Assembly (NCBI RefSeq): GCF_034555375.1
Contig: NZ_CP140706.1
Location: 983,001 to 1,047,000, forward strand
From: Pseudomonas sp. B33.4
GTDB lineage: Bacteria; Pseudomonadota; Gammaproteobacteria; Pseudomonadales; Pseudomonadaceae
Direction of reading: 5' to 3'
Length of the DNA stretch: 64,000 bases
Shown here one piece after another: positions 4,549-60,672 of this stretch (the stretch's first letter is position 1; each line of letters opens with the position of its first letter). The translations under genes and the position numbers were made by a program. The notes beneath the pieces were generated by a model. It saw nothing but the letters and a program-made list of their open reading frames with translations. It was not told the DNA's origin and did no database searches.

Positions 4549-5685
4549 ATTAAACCGCTTTTCGCCAAAGGCCCTTCGTTGGGTGTGCGCCTGTTGGTGC
4601 TGGCCGTGCTGTCGGTCGCGCTGATGGTGGTCGATGCCCGCTTCGACTTGCTCAAGCCCGCGCGCAAACAAGCGTCGCTGGTGTTGATGGACGCCTACTG
4701 GATTACCGACCTGCCGGGACGCCTGTGGGAAGGGATTGCCAGCCAGTTCGGCAGTCGCACCGAACTTGTCGCCGAAAACGAAAAACTCAAAACCGAAAAC
4801 CTGCTGTATCAGGGTCGCATGCAAAAGCTTGCCGCCCTTACCGAGCAGAATGTTCGGCTGCGCGAGTTGCTCAATTCCTCTGCGCTGGTCAACGAAAAGG
4901 TCGAAGTGGCCGAGCTGATCGGCATGGACCCTAATCCCTTCACCCATCGCATCATCATCAATAAAGGTGAGCGCGATGGCGTGGTGCTCGGGCAGCCGGT
5001 GCTCGATGCGCGCGGTCTGATGGGTCAGGTAGTCGAGTTGATGCCTTACACCTCCCGTGTATTGCTGTTGACCGATACCACCCACAGCATTCCTGTACAA
5101 GTCAACCGTAACGGTCTGCGGGCTATTGCCAGCGGCACCGGTAACCCGGAGCGCCTGGAACTGCGTCACGTCGCCGACACGGCCGATATCAAGGAAGGCG
5201 ATCTGCTGGTCAGTTCCGGTCTCGGCCAGCGCTTCCCGGCCGGTTATCCAGTCGCCACGGTGAAGGAAGTCATCCACGATTCCGGCCAGCCGTTCGCGAT
5301 CGTACGCGCCGTGCCGACTGCCGCACTCAACCGTAGCCGCTACCTGCTGCTGGTGTTCAGCGACAACCGCACCGCCGAAGAGCGCGCCAACGATGCTGCG
5401 CAAGCCCAGGAAAATCTTGATGCCTTTGGCGGTGGCCCGATTATTCCGGCCACCGTGCCGAAGACCGTAACCCCACCTGGCGCGACGGCGGCGCCAGTCA
5501 CTGCCACGCCGGCAGTGCCTGCGGCCAGTGCGGCGCCGGCCAAACCGGCTGCGAGCAAACCGCCAGCGGCAGCCAAACCACCGGCGACGCCGGCGGCAAG
5601 TAAACCTCCAGCTGCCCAGCCCGCTGCACGACCTGCGGCCAAACCGCCTGTCGGCGCACCGGCGACAACCGGGAGACAAGAATAA
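4549..5685 (+). CDS. mreC: Rod shape-determining protein MreC, probable ATT start
   Basis: MreC is a periplasmic coiled-coil protein anchored by one N-terminal helix. It links MreB filaments to PBP2/RodA. The frame has no ATG or GTG near its N-terminus. The first conventional start is TTG at 4579 (GVRLLVLAVLS onward). Family-like residues IKPLFAKGPS lie upstream in frame, and the ATT at 4549 is preceded by a strong GGGAGGAG (4535-4542) at ideal spacing, so I place the start there. Order: transmembrane helix (~residues 12-30), coiled coil (~65-105), beta-rich MreC core (~110-275), then a ~75-residue Pro/Ala/Lys-rich, probably disordered C-tail. It overlaps mreD by one base. Confidence 0.9.
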   Translation: MKPLFAKGPSLGVRLLVLAVLSVALMVVDARFDLLKPARKQASLVLMDAYWITDLPGRLWEGIASQFGSRTELVAENEKLKTENLLYQGRMQKLAALTEQNVRLRELLNSSALVNEKVEVAELIGMDPNPFTHRIIINKGERDGVVLGQPVLDARGLMGQVVELMPYTSRVLLLTDTTHSIPVQVNRNGLRAIASGTGNPERLELRHVADTADIKEGDLLVSSGLGQRFPAGYPVATVKEVIHDSGQPFAIVRAVPTAALNRSRYLLLVFSDNRTAEERANDAAQAQENLDAFGGGPIIPATVPKTVTPPGATAAPVTATPAVPAASAAPAKPAASKPPAAAKPPATPAASKPPAAQPAARPAAKPPVGAPATTGRQE

Positions 5686-6176
5686 TGGTCGGGGCTACCG
5701 CATCGCGAAACGGCTGGATTGTCTGGCTGACGTTTCTTGTTGGCCTGTTGCTCAGCGTGTCACCGTTGCCGATTTTCATGGAGATCCTGCGCCCGTTATG
5801 GCTGGCCTTGCTCCTGACATTCTGGGCTCTGTACATGCCGCACACGGTCGGCATGGTCACCGCGTTCTGCCTGGGCCTGGCCGAAGACGTGCTGCAGGGC
5901 GACTTGTTCGGTCAGAACGCGCTGATCCTGACCTTGATCACGTTCCTGGTGCTGTCGTTGCAGCAACGCCTGCGAATGTTCCCCATGTGGCAGCAGTGCC
6001 TGGTGATTCTGGTGATCTTCGGCCTCGCGCAACTGGTGCAATTGTGGCTCAGCGCCTTGACCGGCAACCGTCAGCCAACGTTGGCACTGGTGCTTCCGGC
6101 GCTGGTCAGTGCCTTGCTCTGGCCTTGGGTCAGCTTTGCCCTACGCGGATTGCGCCGACGCTACAAAATCAATTGA
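5685..6176 (+). CDS. mreD: Rod shape-determining membrane protein MreD
   Basis: A 163-residue, highly hydrophobic protein with about five predicted membrane helices. MreD is the integral inner-membrane partner of MreC in the elongasome. The start overlaps the last base of the mreC stop codon (TAATG), implying translational coupling. Size and position are standard for the family. Confidence 0.95.
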
Positions 6177-55257: not shown

Positions 55258-55349
55258 CAGCTTCAAGCGGCGGGCTTCAAGCTGCAAGTTTGGATTGTGG
55301 GTGGCGGTAGCTTAACGCTTGCAGCTCGCAGCTTGAAGCTCAGCGGCTT
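55258..55349. repeat. REP-like pair, family D
   Basis: Inverted copies: CAGCTTCAAGCGGCGGGCTT and CTTGCAGCTCGCAGCTTGAAG. The right arm runs into the folX stop codon (55340-55342). It separates DUF1244 from folX. Confidence 0.75.
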
Positions 55350-55711
55350 GCCGCGAGGGTGATCGATACCGACTCGGCAAATCGCAGCGCATGCGGCTTG
55401 TCGACTTCGACTTCGGCATACAGCACTGAACCGTTGCTCATCACCAGATCGAGCAGTTCCTGCGTCAGCCGTTCAAGCAGCGCGAAGCGGTTGCCCTCGA
55501 CGTGGGCGATGATCGCTTTGGTGATCGTGCGGTAGTTCAGCGCGTGGTCGATGTCGTTGTCACGCACCGCTTCCTGCGCGGCATACAGAATGGTCAGGTT
55601 GATCAGCACATCCTGCTTGTTGAGGATTTCGTCCTCGTTGATCCCGATAAAGGTGCGCAAGCGCAGATCCTTGACCCGGATGCGCGCCATTCCCGGTTGA
55701 AGTTGTGGCAT
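55340..55711 (-). CDS. folX: Dihydroneopterin triphosphate 2'-epimerase FolX
   Basis: FolX epimerises dihydroneopterin triphosphate to dihydromonapterin triphosphate. The 123-residue T-fold protein contains [20 protein letters not shown] and [17 protein letters not shown]. It is distinct from FolB by its context with folE and folM. The last codons (LAASR) are formed by REP-like sequence. One-base spacing to folE. Confidence 0.9.
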
Positions 55712-56272
55712 TTACTTGCTCCGTCCAATCAATTGCAGGAACTCCTGGCGGGTATTGCTCGACTCGCGGAACGCGCCGAGCATGACCGAGGTGTTCATGG
55801 TCGAATTCTGTTTCTCGACACCGCGCATCATCATGCACATGTGCCTGGCCTCGATAACCACGGCGACGCCGGCGGCTTCGGTGACCTGTTGCACCGCATC
55901 GGCGATTTGCCGGGTGAGGTTTTCCTGAATCTGCAGGCGCCGGGCGAACATGTCCACCAGCCGTGCGATCTTCGACAGACCCAGTACTTTGCCCGTCGGA
56001 ATATAAGCCACATGGGCCTTGCCGATGAAGGGCAACAGGTGATGTTCGCACAACGAGTACAACTCGATGTCGGCAACGATGATCATCTCGTCGCTGTCGG
56101 AGGCAAACAGCGCGCCATTGACGATCTCGTCGACGCTCTGTTCGTAACCGTGACACAGGTATTGCATGGCCTTGGCCGCGCGCACCGGGGTGTCGAGCAA
56201 TCCTTCGCGATCGGGATCCTCACCGAGGCCGATGAGGATTTCGCGGTAATTCTCGGGCAGTGAGCGGGCCAT
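55712..56272 (-). CDS. folE: GTP cyclohydrolase I FolE
   Basis: FolE opens GTP to dihydroneopterin triphosphate, the first pterin step. The 186-residue zinc enzyme has [20 protein letters not shown] (Cys-His ligands near 75) and [17 protein letters not shown]; the second Cys ligand is in [10 protein letters not shown]. It is part of folM-folE-folX. In P. putida folE is reported among light-induced genes, notable given the adjacent LOV/MerR pair. Confidence 0.95.
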
Positions 56273-56293
56273 GGAAATCCTCGCAGGCAGGCG

Positions 56294-57004
56294 TTATTTG
56301 ATGTGTCGTCCGCCGTTGACGGTCAGGGTCGTACCGGTGACATAAGGGTTGTCGAGCAGATAGCGCAAGCTCTGATAGATCACTTCGCTGCCGGGTTCGA
56401 TGCCCAGTGCGGATTTGGCCAAGGCCTTGGCGCGGTACGCCGCGTCGTCGTCGGGATTGAACAATAGCAGGGCTGGCGCGATGCCGTTGACCTTGATCGC
56501 TGGCGCATAGCGAGCGGCGAAGGACAGGGTCAGGCTGTCGAGCCCTGCCTTGGTGGCGCAATAGCCGATGTGCTTGCTGCTGCCTTTGCGGGTGACATCG
56601 TCGACGATATGAATGATGTCGGCGGGCGTCGAGCGCAGCAGCATTTCGCCGCAATGCAGGTTGATCAGGTACGGCGCGAGCATGTGCAGATTGAACATGC
56701 GCGTGAAGGCTTCGGCTTCGCTGTCCGGGGTTTCGGCCAGCCATTCGGAGGCGTTGTGCACGATGGCGCGCAGGCGGTCGGTGTGGTTTTTCAGTGTTTC
56801 GATGAAGGCGAGAATCCCGGCTTCGCTGGAGAAATCGGCGAACAGGCCGATGGCGCCCAGATCTCGCAGTGTCTGCACGCCGGGGCGTTCGCTGCGGTAG
56901 GTAAAGATGACGCGATAGCCTTCTTCGAGTAACCGCTGCGCGCAATGCAGACCGACACGCTGGCCGGCACCGGTAATGAGGATCGGGGCGGAGGAATCAG
57001 GCAT
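56294..57004 (-). CDS. folM: Dihydromonapterin reductase FolM
   Basis: FolM is an NADPH-dependent short-chain reductase that makes tetrahydromonapterin, the cofactor of phenylalanine hydroxylase in Pseudomonas. The 236-residue protein has the TGAGQRVGLHCAQRLL nucleotide motif (TGxxxRxG, residues 11-18) and the YCATKAGLD YxxxK pair. The ATG at 57004 gives MPDSSAPILITGAG. It leads folM-folE-folX. Confidence 0.93.
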   Translation of the reverse strand: MPDSSAPILITGAGQRVGLHCAQRLLEEGYRVIFTYRSERPGVQTLRDLGAIGLFADFSSEAGILAFIETLKNHTDRLRAIVHNASEWLAETPDSEAEAFTRMFNLHMLAPYLINLHCGEMLLRSTPADIIHIVDDVTRKGSSKHIGYCATKAGLDSLTLSFAARYAPAIKVNGIAPALLLFNPDDDAAYRAKALAKSALGIEPGSEVIYQSLRYLLDNPYVTGTTLTVNGGRHIK

Positions 57005-57084: not shown

Positions 57085-57172
57085 GTGGGAGCGAGCCTGC
57101 TCGCGAAAGCGGTGTCTCAGTCGACATCAATGTTGAAGGTCAGTCCGTATTCGCGAGCAGGCTCGCTCCCAC
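57085..57172. repeat. REPIN, family B
   Basis: Inverted pair of GTGGGAGCGAGCCTGCTCGC cores, spacer TCGACATCAATGTTGAAGGT onward shared with 54503-54589. Confidence 0.92.
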
Positions 57173-57179
57173 ACAGAGA

Positions 57180-57749
57180 TCATCGATTCTGTGCAGAAGA
57201 CGTCACTGGCACCGGGCGCACCGGGGTGCTGTTCAGCCAGTTCGCCAGCAACCGCGTTGACAGCGGAATAAAGAAGTAAACCATCAGCGGCGTCAGGCAC
57301 GCCGTGCTGATCAACACACGCGGCAACAAACTCATGTCAGCGAGCAAGGGGCCGAGGACAAAGTTGAACAGCAACGACACCGGAAAGAACGCCAGCCAGA
57401 TTGCCACAGCCTGCTTCCAGCGCGGTGGACGCTGACCGGCTGCGCCGAACCAGCCTTCGATGCCGCTGACCCGGTGCTCTTTCGGGTGGGCGAACAGGTC
57501 GCTGCCACGATCCAGCCACGCCGTGCGCGAAGCCGAATGCTCCCACGCATGCAGCGTCTGTTCATCGACGAAACGGAAAATGATTTGAAACTCGTTATCA
57601 CCGGGGGGCGGAGCGAGCACGCCAGAGCCGAGATAACCGGGAAAGTCAGTGGCCAGTTGTTCGCCTTCGCGCAGCCAGGCGATCAAATCCTGATAACGGC
57701 CGTCGGCGACGCGACGGGCAACCATCAGCGTGACGGGGGAAGTAGACAT
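57180..57749 (-). CDS. ABM-domain protein with membrane tail
   Basis: A 189-residue protein. The N-terminal antibiotic-biosynthesis-monooxygenase (dimeric ferredoxin-like) domain has VTLMVARRVADGRYQDLIAW and FQIIFRFVDEQTLHAWEHS. The C-terminus has two hydrophobic helices (AVAIWLAFFPVSLLFNFVL; ISTACLTPLMVYFFIPL). The family is often called antibiotic biosynthesis monooxygenase, but the substrate is unknown. It is divergent from the MerR gene across 214 bp. Confidence 0.85.
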   Translation of the reverse strand: MSTSPVTLMVARRVADGRYQDLIAWLREGEQLATDFPGYLGSGVLAPPPGDNEFQIIFRFVDEQTLHAWEHSASRTAWLDRGSDLFAHPKEHRVSGIEGWFGAAGQRPPRWKQAVAIWLAFFPVSLLFNFVLGPLLADMSLLPRVLISTACLTPLMVYFFIPLSTRLLANWLNSTPVRPVPVTSSAQNR

Positions 57750-57963
57750 TTTGTATCTCCGTATTTCGAGTGCGTCACTCCGGGTAGGAATTTCGCCTGA
57801 CGCAAAGCCGGGGGTAGAGGCCTGCGTTTTTCAACAAGCAAGGATTATTCCGGTTTTTCACGATTAAACCAGCGACTTTCGTCGCATTTCATCACTTGAA
57901 TCCCATTGGGGCATAAGCGTTAGAATGGGATCCAATTGAACCGACATGGAAGTTGAACACCAT

Positions 57964-58923
57964 ATGCCTGTCATCACGGACGCAAGCCCCGCATCGCAGG
58001 CATCTGTCGCGCTCGAGCGCGCCGATCTGTTCCCTATTCGTGAGGTCGCACGCCTGACCGGTGTCAACCCGGTGACCTTGCGTGCCTGGGAGCGGCGCTA
58101 TGGTTTGATTCAGCCAACGCGCACCGAAAGCGGGCATCGGCTCTATTCGATGACCGATATCGAACGCGTGCGCAGCATTGTCGACTGGATTGATCGCGGT
58201 GTCGCCGTGAGCAAGGTCGGCAAGATTCTCGCCAGGACTGAACCCATGAAAGTGCTGGCGCACATCATCCCTGATGATCTGGTGCAGGCCGATTACCGGC
58301 AATGGCAGGAGCAGATTCAGCAGGCGGTCAGTGCATTCGATGATCAGCAGCTGGATCGGGTGTACGGCCAGATTTTCTCTTCTTACGCACAACCCGTGGT
58401 GTTTCAGGACATTCTGATGCCTTTGTGGCTGCAACTGTTGCAGCGCCAGGAGGCTTTCGGGCAAACCAGCGAGTGGCTGTTCTTTGATGGATTTCTGCGG
58501 GCGCGGGTGTTGCAACGGATCGTCATGCTGCGTGGCACGCAGCCGCGTCGGGTGGTCGTAAGCGCGCTGGCTGGGCAATGTCGGGAGCTGGAATTGCTGG
58601 TGGCGGCGCTGTTTCTCAGCGATAGCAATGCGGGGGTCAGGTTGTTGACCACGGGGCAGCCGTTCGATGAATTGACGCTGGTTTGCGAGAAAATCAAACC
58701 CCAAGCGCTGGTGCTGTTTTCCAATCACGCGCCCGGCGCCGATTTGCCTCGGCGTTTGAACCGGCTGGCGTTGAGCCTCGATTGTCAGTTGATGCTGGCG
58801 GGCGATGCGTCAGATCTGGCGCAGGACAGTCTGGCCGGATCCTCTGTTGCATGCCTTGGAAATGAAGGTGGCAACATGCGTCAACGCATGCTGCAGTTTC
58901 TCGCGGGAAATCTGGATACCTGA
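57964..58923 (+). CDS. LitR/PplR-type MerR transcriptional regulator (B12 site substituted)
   Basis: A 319-residue regulator. The N-terminal MerR winged helix (about 20-95) has FPIREVARLTGVNPVTLRAW and ERRYGLIQPTRTESGHRLYS. The rest follows the CarH/LitR layout: a helical bundle (about 100-190) and a Rossmann-like B12-binding domain (about 195-310). By eye, the CarH cobalamin residues are changed: the Glu-His pair reads Glu-Trp (TSEWLF) and the lower-ligand motif GExHxxG reads GQCRELE, i.e. His to Arg. This fits class II LitR (PplR), which is B12-independent and works with a short LOV protein; one lies 0.7 kb away. The ATG at 57964 has GGAAG upstream; 57946 is an alternative. Confidence 0.87.
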   Translation: MPVITDASPASQASVALERADLFPIREVARLTGVNPVTLRAWERRYGLIQPTRTESGHRLYSMTDIERVRSIVDWIDRGVAVSKVGKILARTEPMKVLAHIIPDDLVQADYRQWQEQIQQAVSAFDDQQLDRVYGQIFSSYAQPVVFQDILMPLWLQLLQRQEAFGQTSEWLFFDGFLRARVLQRIVMLRGTQPRRVVVSALAGQCRELELLVAALFLSDSNAGVRLLTTGQPFDELTLVCEKIKPQALVLFSNHAPGADLPRRLNRLALSLDCQLMLAGDASDLAQDSLAGSSVACLGNEGGNMRQRMLQFLAGNLDT

Positions 58924-58926
58924 AAC

Positions 58927-59532
58927 TCAGGTGTGCAGGGCAGGGTGGGTCAAGCGATGTTGTTGCAGGATGAATTGGCGCAGACGCTCGGTTTCGTCGG
59001 TGTCGGTCTGGCTCAGTTCGTAGGCGTAGAAACCGCTTTCGGTTTCCCGTTCGAAATTGCCCCGCAATGAAATCCGCTCGTAACCCGAAGGGCTGAACCA
59101 CAGCGCGAAATGCTTGGGTGGTTTGGTCTTGTTGCGCACTTCCAGCAGCACACCTTTGTGCGACACCTCGTGTACCCACAACATGCCCGGCTGACCTTTG
59201 GCGTTTTCCAGGGCTACCGGCTCTTCAAGCACCAGTCGCCATGGCCGCACCATCGGGCCGTCTTCGTAAATACTCGGCACGCCGAGACGCAGATGCAGTG
59301 CGTGAAACTCGTCTTCCACCAGATGCAGAGGGAAGGTCATTTGCTGGTTTTCGAAGTTGGCCTGAATGGTCACTTGCTCGTGCGCGGCCAGGCGCGTGAG
59401 CAAATCGCGGATCTGCGAACCGCCGTTAACCAGCAGACTCGACGTCGCATCCCGCACGTTCAGTTGCGGGTTGTGCTGCATGGTCTGGATGAAATCCAGC
59501 TCATCCTGAGTGAGGAGGGCGTCGCGCTGCAT
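58927..59532 (-). CDS. PilZ/YcgR-like protein
   Basis: About 201 residues. The N-terminal half resembles YcgR-N (GSQIRDLLTRLAAHEQVTIQ; FPLHLVEDEFHALHLRLG). The C-terminal half resembles a PilZ barrel (MLWVHEVSHKGVLLEVRN), where the D/NxSxxG motif appears as EVSHKG; I see no clear RxxxR, so c-di-GMP binding is doubtful. It is downstream of the LOV gene on the same strand: a GTG frame starts right after the LOV stop (59586) and the ATG at 59532 is 54 bases on. Probably one operon with LOV. Confidence 0.65.
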   Translation of the reverse strand: MQRDALLTQDELDFIQTMQHNPQLNVRDATSSLLVNGGSQIRDLLTRLAAHEQVTIQANFENQQMTFPLHLVEDEFHALHLRLGVPSIYEDGPMVRPWRLVLEEPVALENAKGQPGMLWVHEVSHKGVLLEVRNKTKPPKHFALWFSPSGYERISLRGNFERETESGFYAYELSQTDTDETERLRQFILQQHRLTHPALHT

Positions 59533-59586
59533 GGCTAACTCGAAAGATATAGTTACAAAGTCATTGGTGATTGTAGTTAATGACAC

Positions 59587-60063
59587 TTAGTTCGCGATTT
59601 TGTTTTGACCGTTTGTCGCTTTCAATGCTGCCAGTTCCGCCTCGAGGGCTGCGACCTGGGCTTCCAGCTGTGCCACACGCTGCTGAGCCTTGACCTGAAC
59701 AGTCACGTCCTTCTGCACGCCGACGAAATAAGTCTGCCCGTCATCGGCGTTTTTCACCGTTGAAAGCGACAGTTCATTCCAGAACGGCGTGCCGTCCTTG
59801 CGATAGTTGCGCAGGATTTCCCGGCACGATCCATTGTTGCGCAAGACCTCGCGAATCAGCTCCAGACTCTCCTGATCGCGATCACCGGCCTGCAGAAAAC
59901 GGCAGTCCTGATAGAGGATTTCCTCGCTGGTGTAACCGGTCAGGCGCTCAAAAGCCGGGTTCACATAAATCAGGATGTTGTCCTGCTCACCTTCCTTCTC
60001 GGCGACCACGATCCCGTCGTTCGACGCGTTGATCACCATTTGCAGCAAGCTTGCGTTGATCAT
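59587..60063 (-). CDS. Short LOV-domain blue-light photoreceptor
   Basis: A 158-residue protein that is a single LOV domain with an N-cap and a C-terminal helix. The flavin-adduct motif reads YQDCRFLQAGDRDQ with photoactive Cys54. Flavin contacts NYRKDGTPFWNEL (Asn86, Asn96) and GVQKD (Gln117) are present. Residues about 122-149 form a heptad-rich coiled coil (VAQLEAQVAALEAELAALKA). The sequence closely resembles the PpSB1-LOV group of P. putida. No output domain is fused; it is thought to signal through partner proteins. Grouped with a PilZ-like gene and a LitR-type regulator. Confidence 0.95.
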   Translation of the reverse strand: MINASLLQMVINASNDGIVVAEKEGEQDNILIYVNPAFERLTGYTSEEILYQDCRFLQAGDRDQESLELIREVLRNNGSCREILRNYRKDGTPFWNELSLSTVKNADDGQTYFVGVQKDVTVQVKAQQRVAQLEAQVAALEAELAALKATNGQNKIAN

Positions 60064-60216: not shown

Positions 60217-60672
60217 ATGAAAGTCGCCATCCTCTCCGGTTCGGTCTACGGCACCGCCGAAGAAGTCGCCCGTCACGCCCAGAACCTGTTGAAAGCCGCT
60301 GGCTTTGAAACCTTCTACAACTCGCGCGCCAGCCTGGCGGACATTCAAGCGTTCGGCCCTGAGGCGTTTCTGGCGGTGACTTCGACCACCGGCATGGGCG
60401 AGTTGCCGGATAACCTGCAACCGCTGTACTCGACCATTCGCGACCAGTTGCCGGCCGCGTGGCGCGGTTTGCCGGGTGCGGTGATTGCCTTGGGCGATGC
60501 CAGCTATGGCGATACCTTCTGTGGCGGTGGCGAGCAAATGCGTGAATTATTCGGCGAACTGGGCGTGCGCGAAGTGCAGGACATGCTGCGCATCGATGCC
60601 AGCGAAAGTGTCACCCCGGAAACCGACGCCGAGCCTTGGCTGGCACAGTTGATCGACGCGCTCAAGGGCTGA
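60217..60672 (+). CDS. MioC-type flavodoxin
   Basis: A 151-residue flavodoxin: FMN-phosphate loop ILSGSVYGTAEEVA (residues 5-18), then TSTTGMGELPDNLQ and ALGDASYGDTFCGGG. MioC-like proteins are electron carriers, e.g. for biotin synthase. The start MKVAILSGSVYG at 60217 is the family N-terminus. It is divergent from the LOV gene across 153 bp and convergent with (11-base overlap of) the LysR gene. Confidence 0.92.
   Translation: MKVAILSGSVYGTAEEVARHAQNLLKAAGFETFYNSRASLADIQAFGPEAFLAVTSTTGMGELPDNLQPLYSTIRDQLPAAWRGLPGAVIALGDASYGDTFCGGGEQMRELFGELGVREVQDMLRIDASESVTPETDAEPWLAQLIDALKG

Follow-up and report, generated by a model that had tools for sequence, protein, structure and literature searches.

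A short LOV protein and a LitR-type regulator as a probable blue-light switch in Pseudomonas sp. B33.4

A short LOV protein beside a LitR-type regulator

We analysed a stretch of 64,000 nucleotides of the Pseudomonas sp. B33.4 genome (NZ_CP140706.1, positions 983,001 to 1,047,000; the window), in which a gene for a short LOV blue-light receptor lies close to one for a LitR-type MerR regulator. This pair is very probably a blue-light anti-repressor switch of the PmlR2/PmSB-LOV kind, known from P. mendocina; its output would be the rudS-pplR1-phrB operon and one cryB-like gene, both at other places in the genome. The genes at the locus are as follows, in window coordinates.

57964..58923, + strand: class II LitR-type MerR regulator (PmlR2/PplR3-like), with MerR and CarH matches; open reading frame (ORF) readable from 57946
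58927..59532, - strand: PilZ-like protein, on the LOV strand; by position, the counterpart of P. mendocina PME15565
59587..60063, - strand: short LOV blue-light receptor with Cys54; one PAS/LOV domain, motif DCRFLQ
60217..60672, + strand: flavodoxin-like gene (Fld), divergent from the LOV gene; a conserved flank of the locus
57180..57749, - strand: ABM-domain protein, divergent from the regulator
55340..57004, - strand: folM-folE-folX, with no recognisable operator

The LOV gene encodes a protein of 158 amino acids (aa), a member of the short LOV proteins that consists of a single PAS/LOV domain without an effector domain. Its adduct cysteine is residue 54, in DCRFLQ, just as the initial annotation of the window had read it. 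With positions mapped by an offset of one residue, Leu67 corresponds to Arg66 of PpSB1-LOV, so that dark recovery might conceivably be faster than that of PpSB1-LOV. The closest solved chains are likewise short LOV-type proteins (7yx0, E = 7.6e-73; 7r5n, 3.8e-69; 3sw1, 1.5e-50). The adduct cysteine is present in 164 of the 165 LOV sequences examined, the remaining one being frame-broken; this set and the 161 LitR rows used below include the window, overlapping loci of one genome and many near-identical relatives, and LOV matches below 150 bits and LitR matches of 200 bits or less were set apart from the residue alignment. The distance of about 0.7 kb that had been claimed between the LOV gene and a CarH/LitR-like MerR regulator also held, as 663 bp separate the two stop codons. 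The PilZ-like gene lies between them, on the same strand as the LOV gene and 54 bp from it.

Elsewhere in the host genome, the [ND]CRFLQ codon pattern had no further exact match, in a search that covers that exact spelling only, and no BLUF domain was detected. Because the window LOV is the sole such match and BLUF is absent, both LitR-type regulators of this strain, the second one (PplR1) included, probably rely on it as their sensor.

The regulator is predicted to have an emptied cobalamin domain

The regulator ORF spans 57946-58923 on the + strand; translation more likely begins at its second ATG (57964), because relatives L120-L123 start with the matching MPV. The protein matches MerR_1 (2.4e-16) and 5c8d (3.2e-16), giving it the CarH-like MerR helix-turn-helix (HTH) of class II LitR, while its match to the NCBIfam CarH model (8.7e-22) falls far under the equivalog cut-off. 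Aligned with T. thermophilus CarH by HMMER, the window protein has Arg213 (GQCREL) opposite the histidine that follows GER and Glu176-Trp177 opposite the Glu-His pair, which bears out the His-to-Arg and Glu-His-to-Glu-Trp replacements proposed in the initial annotation. The cobalamin ligands are thus replaced, by Trp177 and Arg213 at CarH histidine positions, as in class II and not class I LitR. The two CarH histidines are His142 and His177. At the His142 position, the 161 rows have Trp (158), a gap (2) or Gly (1), and never His. Separately, 16 of the 161 partner-type rows, from 13 genomes or records (e.g. L124, L137 and L143), have His at the His177 position.

We predicted the structure of the regulator from the window sequence and 49 of 64 relatives picked from 78. 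Compared with 5c8d/5c8e, the model retains the whole CarH cobalamin-domain fold. We therefore predict a B12 domain whose fold has been emptied rather than lost, and the ligand positions lead us not to expect cobalamin binding. A Pfam scan gave no B12-binding_2 match for the window LitR. The host PplR1 (L146:9878-10816) still matches this family, at 34.5 bits against a cut-off of 23. Between the two host regulators, the HTH regions are identical at 31 of 42 positions and the later parts at 52 of 209.

The window regulator therefore resembles class I LitR/CarH (T. thermophilus CarH, 5c8d/5c8e) in its HTH and whole cobalamin-domain fold, but differs in its replaced ligands and in that light sensing presumably falls to a separate LOV protein. 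A regulator with such a fold might instead sense light by itself, via cobalamin or another cofactor in the CarH-like domain, with LOV acting as a modulator. Against this stand Trp177 and Arg213 in place of both cobalamin-site histidines, the lack of any His at the His142 position, and the report that B12 is dispensable for the P. putida response (PMC9758184). We regard this as highly improbable.

The locus corresponds to a published light-response cluster

A switch of the favoured kind has been described for P. mendocina NBRC 14162 (Maruyama 2022, PMC9758184). According to that report, PmlR2 represses light-inducible promoters and lit PmSB-LOV is the anti-repressor: attaching to the N-terminal half of PmlR2, it prevents DNA binding by this repressor, and the cysteine is needed. 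The evidence there comes from assays of interaction, of DNA binding and of transcription in vitro, and repression was relieved. Gel shift and BIAcore gave conflicting answers as to whether the complex remains DNA-bound, and the authors favour BIAcore. The genes pmlR2, PME15565 and pmSB-LOV lie beside folM-folE-folX and form a cluster that is described as conserved within Pseudomonas. In P. mendocina, light raises the expression of folM and folE 1.6-3.3 fold.

By gene order, the window is the same locus, with PME15565 equated to the PilZ-like gene by position only. Both have a short LOV with the adduct cysteine, a class II LitR and one further gene, folM-folE-folX alongside, and the same operator consensus at the phrB operon. 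They differ in that this strain has no recognisable folM operator and in the length of LOV (158 aa here, 148 aa there). In P. putida KT2440, PplR1-3 together with PpSB1-LOV and PpSB2-LOV control phrB, cryB, ufaM and folE (according to PMC9758184 and PMC8508746). Class II LitR regulators and short LOV proteins are common to the two strains, but the numbers are two regulators and a single short LOV in the B33.4 host, compared with three and two in KT2440. The pair had initially been likened to PplR/PpSB-LOV, with LOV as sensor and LitR as DNA-binding output. It is indeed of that type; its arrangement, however, is not new, since PMC9758184 already describes it. Taken by itself, the locus is thus unremarkable, being a clear example of a switch already in print.

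LOV and its partner regulator are largely inherited together

We then compared 149 genomes drawn evenly from the genus Pseudomonas. A short LOV was counted at E 1e-30 or better (a few extras of LOV-histidine-kinase size pass, but every counted genome has a better short one) and a partner LitR at E about 1e-57 or better, the next listed row having 2.8e-46. For locus order, LOV and LitR matches below 100 bits were dropped. The order LitR (+), PilZ-like (-), LOV (-), Fld (+) is kept in 118 of the 149 genomes, which indicates that the LOV-LitR neighbourhood is more than chance. The remaining orders are PilZ-Fld (19 genomes), LitR-LOV-Fld (5), PilZ-LOV-Fld (5) and none of LOV, LitR and PilZ (2). 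Among the matches listed, 4 of the 19 PilZ-Fld genomes have a LOV-LitR pair elsewhere, and 3 of the 5 genomes without a local LitR have one elsewhere.

Genome-wide, again among the matches listed, a short LOV occurs in 132 genomes and a partner LitR in 130: both are present in 130, LOV only in 2 (G091 and G141), the partner LitR only in none, and neither in 17. We placed the changes at the locus on a tree built by a quick method from two short proteins (147 rows), which gave 10 changes for LOV, 11 for LitR and 2 for the PilZ-like gene. Nine independent pairs of genomes differ in LOV; LitR differs the same way in 7, is opposed in 0 and shows no difference in 2 (median p 0.016, range 0.016-0.031). 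When LitR is counted genome-wide, it follows LOV in 7 of 8 independent pairs. LitR copies of a second type, among the matches listed, all stand head to head with a short LOV (13 of 13), with less than 200 bp between and no room for a PilZ gene.

The PilZ-like gene is a neighbour of the probable switch

The PilZ-like protein has 201 aa in most listed relatives, and the 219-aa ORF is a longer frame. Pfam PF07238 gave no match to the window protein up to E 5, and 3 of the 7 relatives scanned (L125, L130, L133) were above the cut-off. In a model built from 35 sequences, residues 84-200, the C-terminal half, match PilZ domains, which supports a predicted PilZ fold there; the N-terminal half is of low confidence. 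PilZ domains that bind cyclic di-GMP (c-di-GMP) carry the canonical motifs RxxxR and D/NxSxxG. The window protein has RPWR and EVSHKG instead, so that it shares the C-terminal barrel fold of PilZ/YcgR-like proteins but is unrecognised by Pfam and has no canonical c-di-GMP motifs. Some relatives carry DxSxxG (L116, L126, L115).

These features raise the alternative of a single module made up of LOV, c-di-GMP and the PilZ-like protein, in which the PilZ-like protein is the output of LOV and LitR is a bystander. The shared strand and the 54-bp gap, the gene order kept in 118 of 149 genomes and the predicted fold would all fit such a module. Its inheritance does not: the PilZ-like gene is found in 142 of the 149 genomes, 15 of the 17 genomes that lack LOV and partner LitR retain it (15 of 149 overall have it without a short LOV), and 5 of the 7 genomes without it carry LOV and LitR. 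In the nine pairs differing in LOV, it changed the same way in none and the other way in 0 or 1. Together with the non-canonical motifs, this independent inheritance led us to reject PilZ/c-di-GMP as the LOV output, and LOV-LitR binding is moreover published for a relative; we consider the module highly improbable. The PilZ-like gene is thus a neighbour of the switch, not a third component, and need not be counted among the parts that respond to light. Nor is it an addition in the LOV operon, as had been supposed, because PMC9758184 already describes a gene (PME15565) between pmlR2 and pmSB-LOV in the conserved cluster.

Predicted operators name likely output genes

We searched for the published operator consensus, TRTACA-N12-TGTAYA (PMC9758184). 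The host genome has exact operators in 4 places, and the reversed control gave 0. Two of them, 49 bp apart, precede the rudS-pplR1-phrB operon. The first contains TTGACT, with TATGCT 16 bp downstream, the same layout as in the published promoter P6650. The third operator stands before a photolyase-related (DPRP) gene, here termed cryB-like, with its end 66 bp from the ATG. The fourth (C1:6259142), inside a porin-like ORF, we set aside as chance.

Along this row of genes, Pfam recognised 2-thiouracil desulfurase and DUF1722 (rudS, L146:8823-9875), MerR and B12-binding_2 (pplR1) and photolyase (phrB), followed by a short-chain dehydrogenase, an FAD oxidoreductase, DUF1365 and a CMAS methyltransferase, which we presume to be ufaM-like. 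The rudS product is a tRNA 4-thiouridine desulfidase (PMC11417400).

When up to 3 mismatches were allowed, the window gave 26 matches against 17.1 (sd 4.4) expected, and 1 of 100 shuffles reached 26; none lies upstream of folM, LitR or LOV, and we rejected a light operator inside the window. The best matrix score upstream of folM was -5.3, against a range of 22-36 among the sites from which the matrix was built. Since the window genes themselves showed no operator, the switched genes probably lie elsewhere in the genome, and the predicted operators now name likely ones.

PplR1 in genomes without a short LOV

Of the 17 genomes without a short LOV and window-type LitR, 15 retain PplR1, flanked by rudS and phrB in all 15. 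An exact operator lies upstream in 14 of these and a single-mismatch operator in the other; two sites 46-50 bp apart (up to 2 mismatches) are present in 12. An [ND]CRFLQ site occurs in 11 of the 15, in 10 of them within a LOV-search match and in G026 outside one, whereas G020, G103, G109 and G126 have no exact site of that spelling. No BLUF domain was found in any of the 15.

The similar HTH regions of the window LitR and PplR1 (31/42) and the operators at the pplR1 operon itself bring up another reading, in which the two regulators share the work: LOV would act chiefly on PplR1, and the window LitR would be a constitutive co-repressor or would set the dark threshold. G091 and G141, which have LOV and a LitR match of PplR1 strength but no partner LitR among the matches listed, would suit this arrangement, as would the cooperation of three PplRs in P. 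putida that PMC9758184 cites. Yet LOV goes missing together with the window-type LitR and not with PplR1, and light-dependent binding was shown for PmlR2 (PMC9758184). We judge such a division of work rather unlikely.

We tentatively suggest, as a possibility, that PplR1 of the photolyase operon has an input other than the short LOV. If so, in the four species with neither an exact [ND]CRFLQ site nor a BLUF domain, class II LitR would respond to DNA damage, to another sensor or to a cofactor held in the cobalamin-type fold that it retains. The phr gene of P. cichorii JBC1, a strain that may or may not have a short LOV, is up with UV-C plus blue light and not with blue light alone (PMC13274461). 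Where a species has the photolyase regulator but no LOV-LitR pair, a testable question arises, namely what class II LitR senses alone. Among the literature matches listed, judged by titles and abstract openings, we found nothing on class II LitR without LOV or on the PilZ-like gene of this cluster.

Proposed mechanism

In the favoured anti-repressor switch, the LitR-type repressor would, in the dark, occupy TRTACA-N12-TGTAYA operators; at target promoters, these would overlap the start region and the -35 hexamer. On illumination with blue light, the Cys54-FMN adduct would form in the LOV dimer, and lit LOV would bind the HTH half of the regulator and remove it from DNA. The predicted output in this strain would be the rudS-pplR1-phrB operon, through two operators, and the cryB-like gene, through one. 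LOV thus most likely releases the repressor in light, turning on DNA-repair genes. For this strain, the argument draws on sequence, predicted fold, operators and co-inheritance, while light-dependent binding, DNA release and derepression come from the relative (PMC9758184); we infer by analogy that the proteins of this strain would behave in the same way.

Several observations weigh against this switch. The operator pattern alone is not specific, as the exact match inside the porin-like ORF indicates, and folM, LitR and LOV in the window have no operator, the best matrix scores there being negative. PMC11417400 calls class II LitR adenosyl-B12-dependent, contrary to PMC9758184. Among the matches listed, G091 and G141 have LOV without a partner LitR, and short LOV copies in G038 (C22), G049 (at 3507241) and G118 (at 3425951) have no adjacent LitR. 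G034, counted as having both, has LitR in two overlapping pieces in different frames (C1:1989944-1990902), and in G057 the second-type LOV (L144:4617-4931), head to head with LitR, is interrupted early by an in-frame TAG that follows residue 104. The 80 named close-relative loci, the best 80 of 437 and not a fair sample, include three cases near 5400-6000 in which LitR is kept with a LOV remnant (L211), with no LOV match (L215) or with a frame break in LOV (L219), so that the pair can come apart.

The system being already known, this analysis contributes by comparison: it dismisses the PilZ-like gene, names the likely output and predicts that the B12 domain is an emptied fold.

Minor features of the window

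An Rfam scan of the window gave no match at the gathering score. Between folM and the ABM-domain gene, at 57085-57173, lies an inverted repeat formed by GGGAGCGAGCCTGCTCGCGAA and its complement, which is presumably of the REP type.
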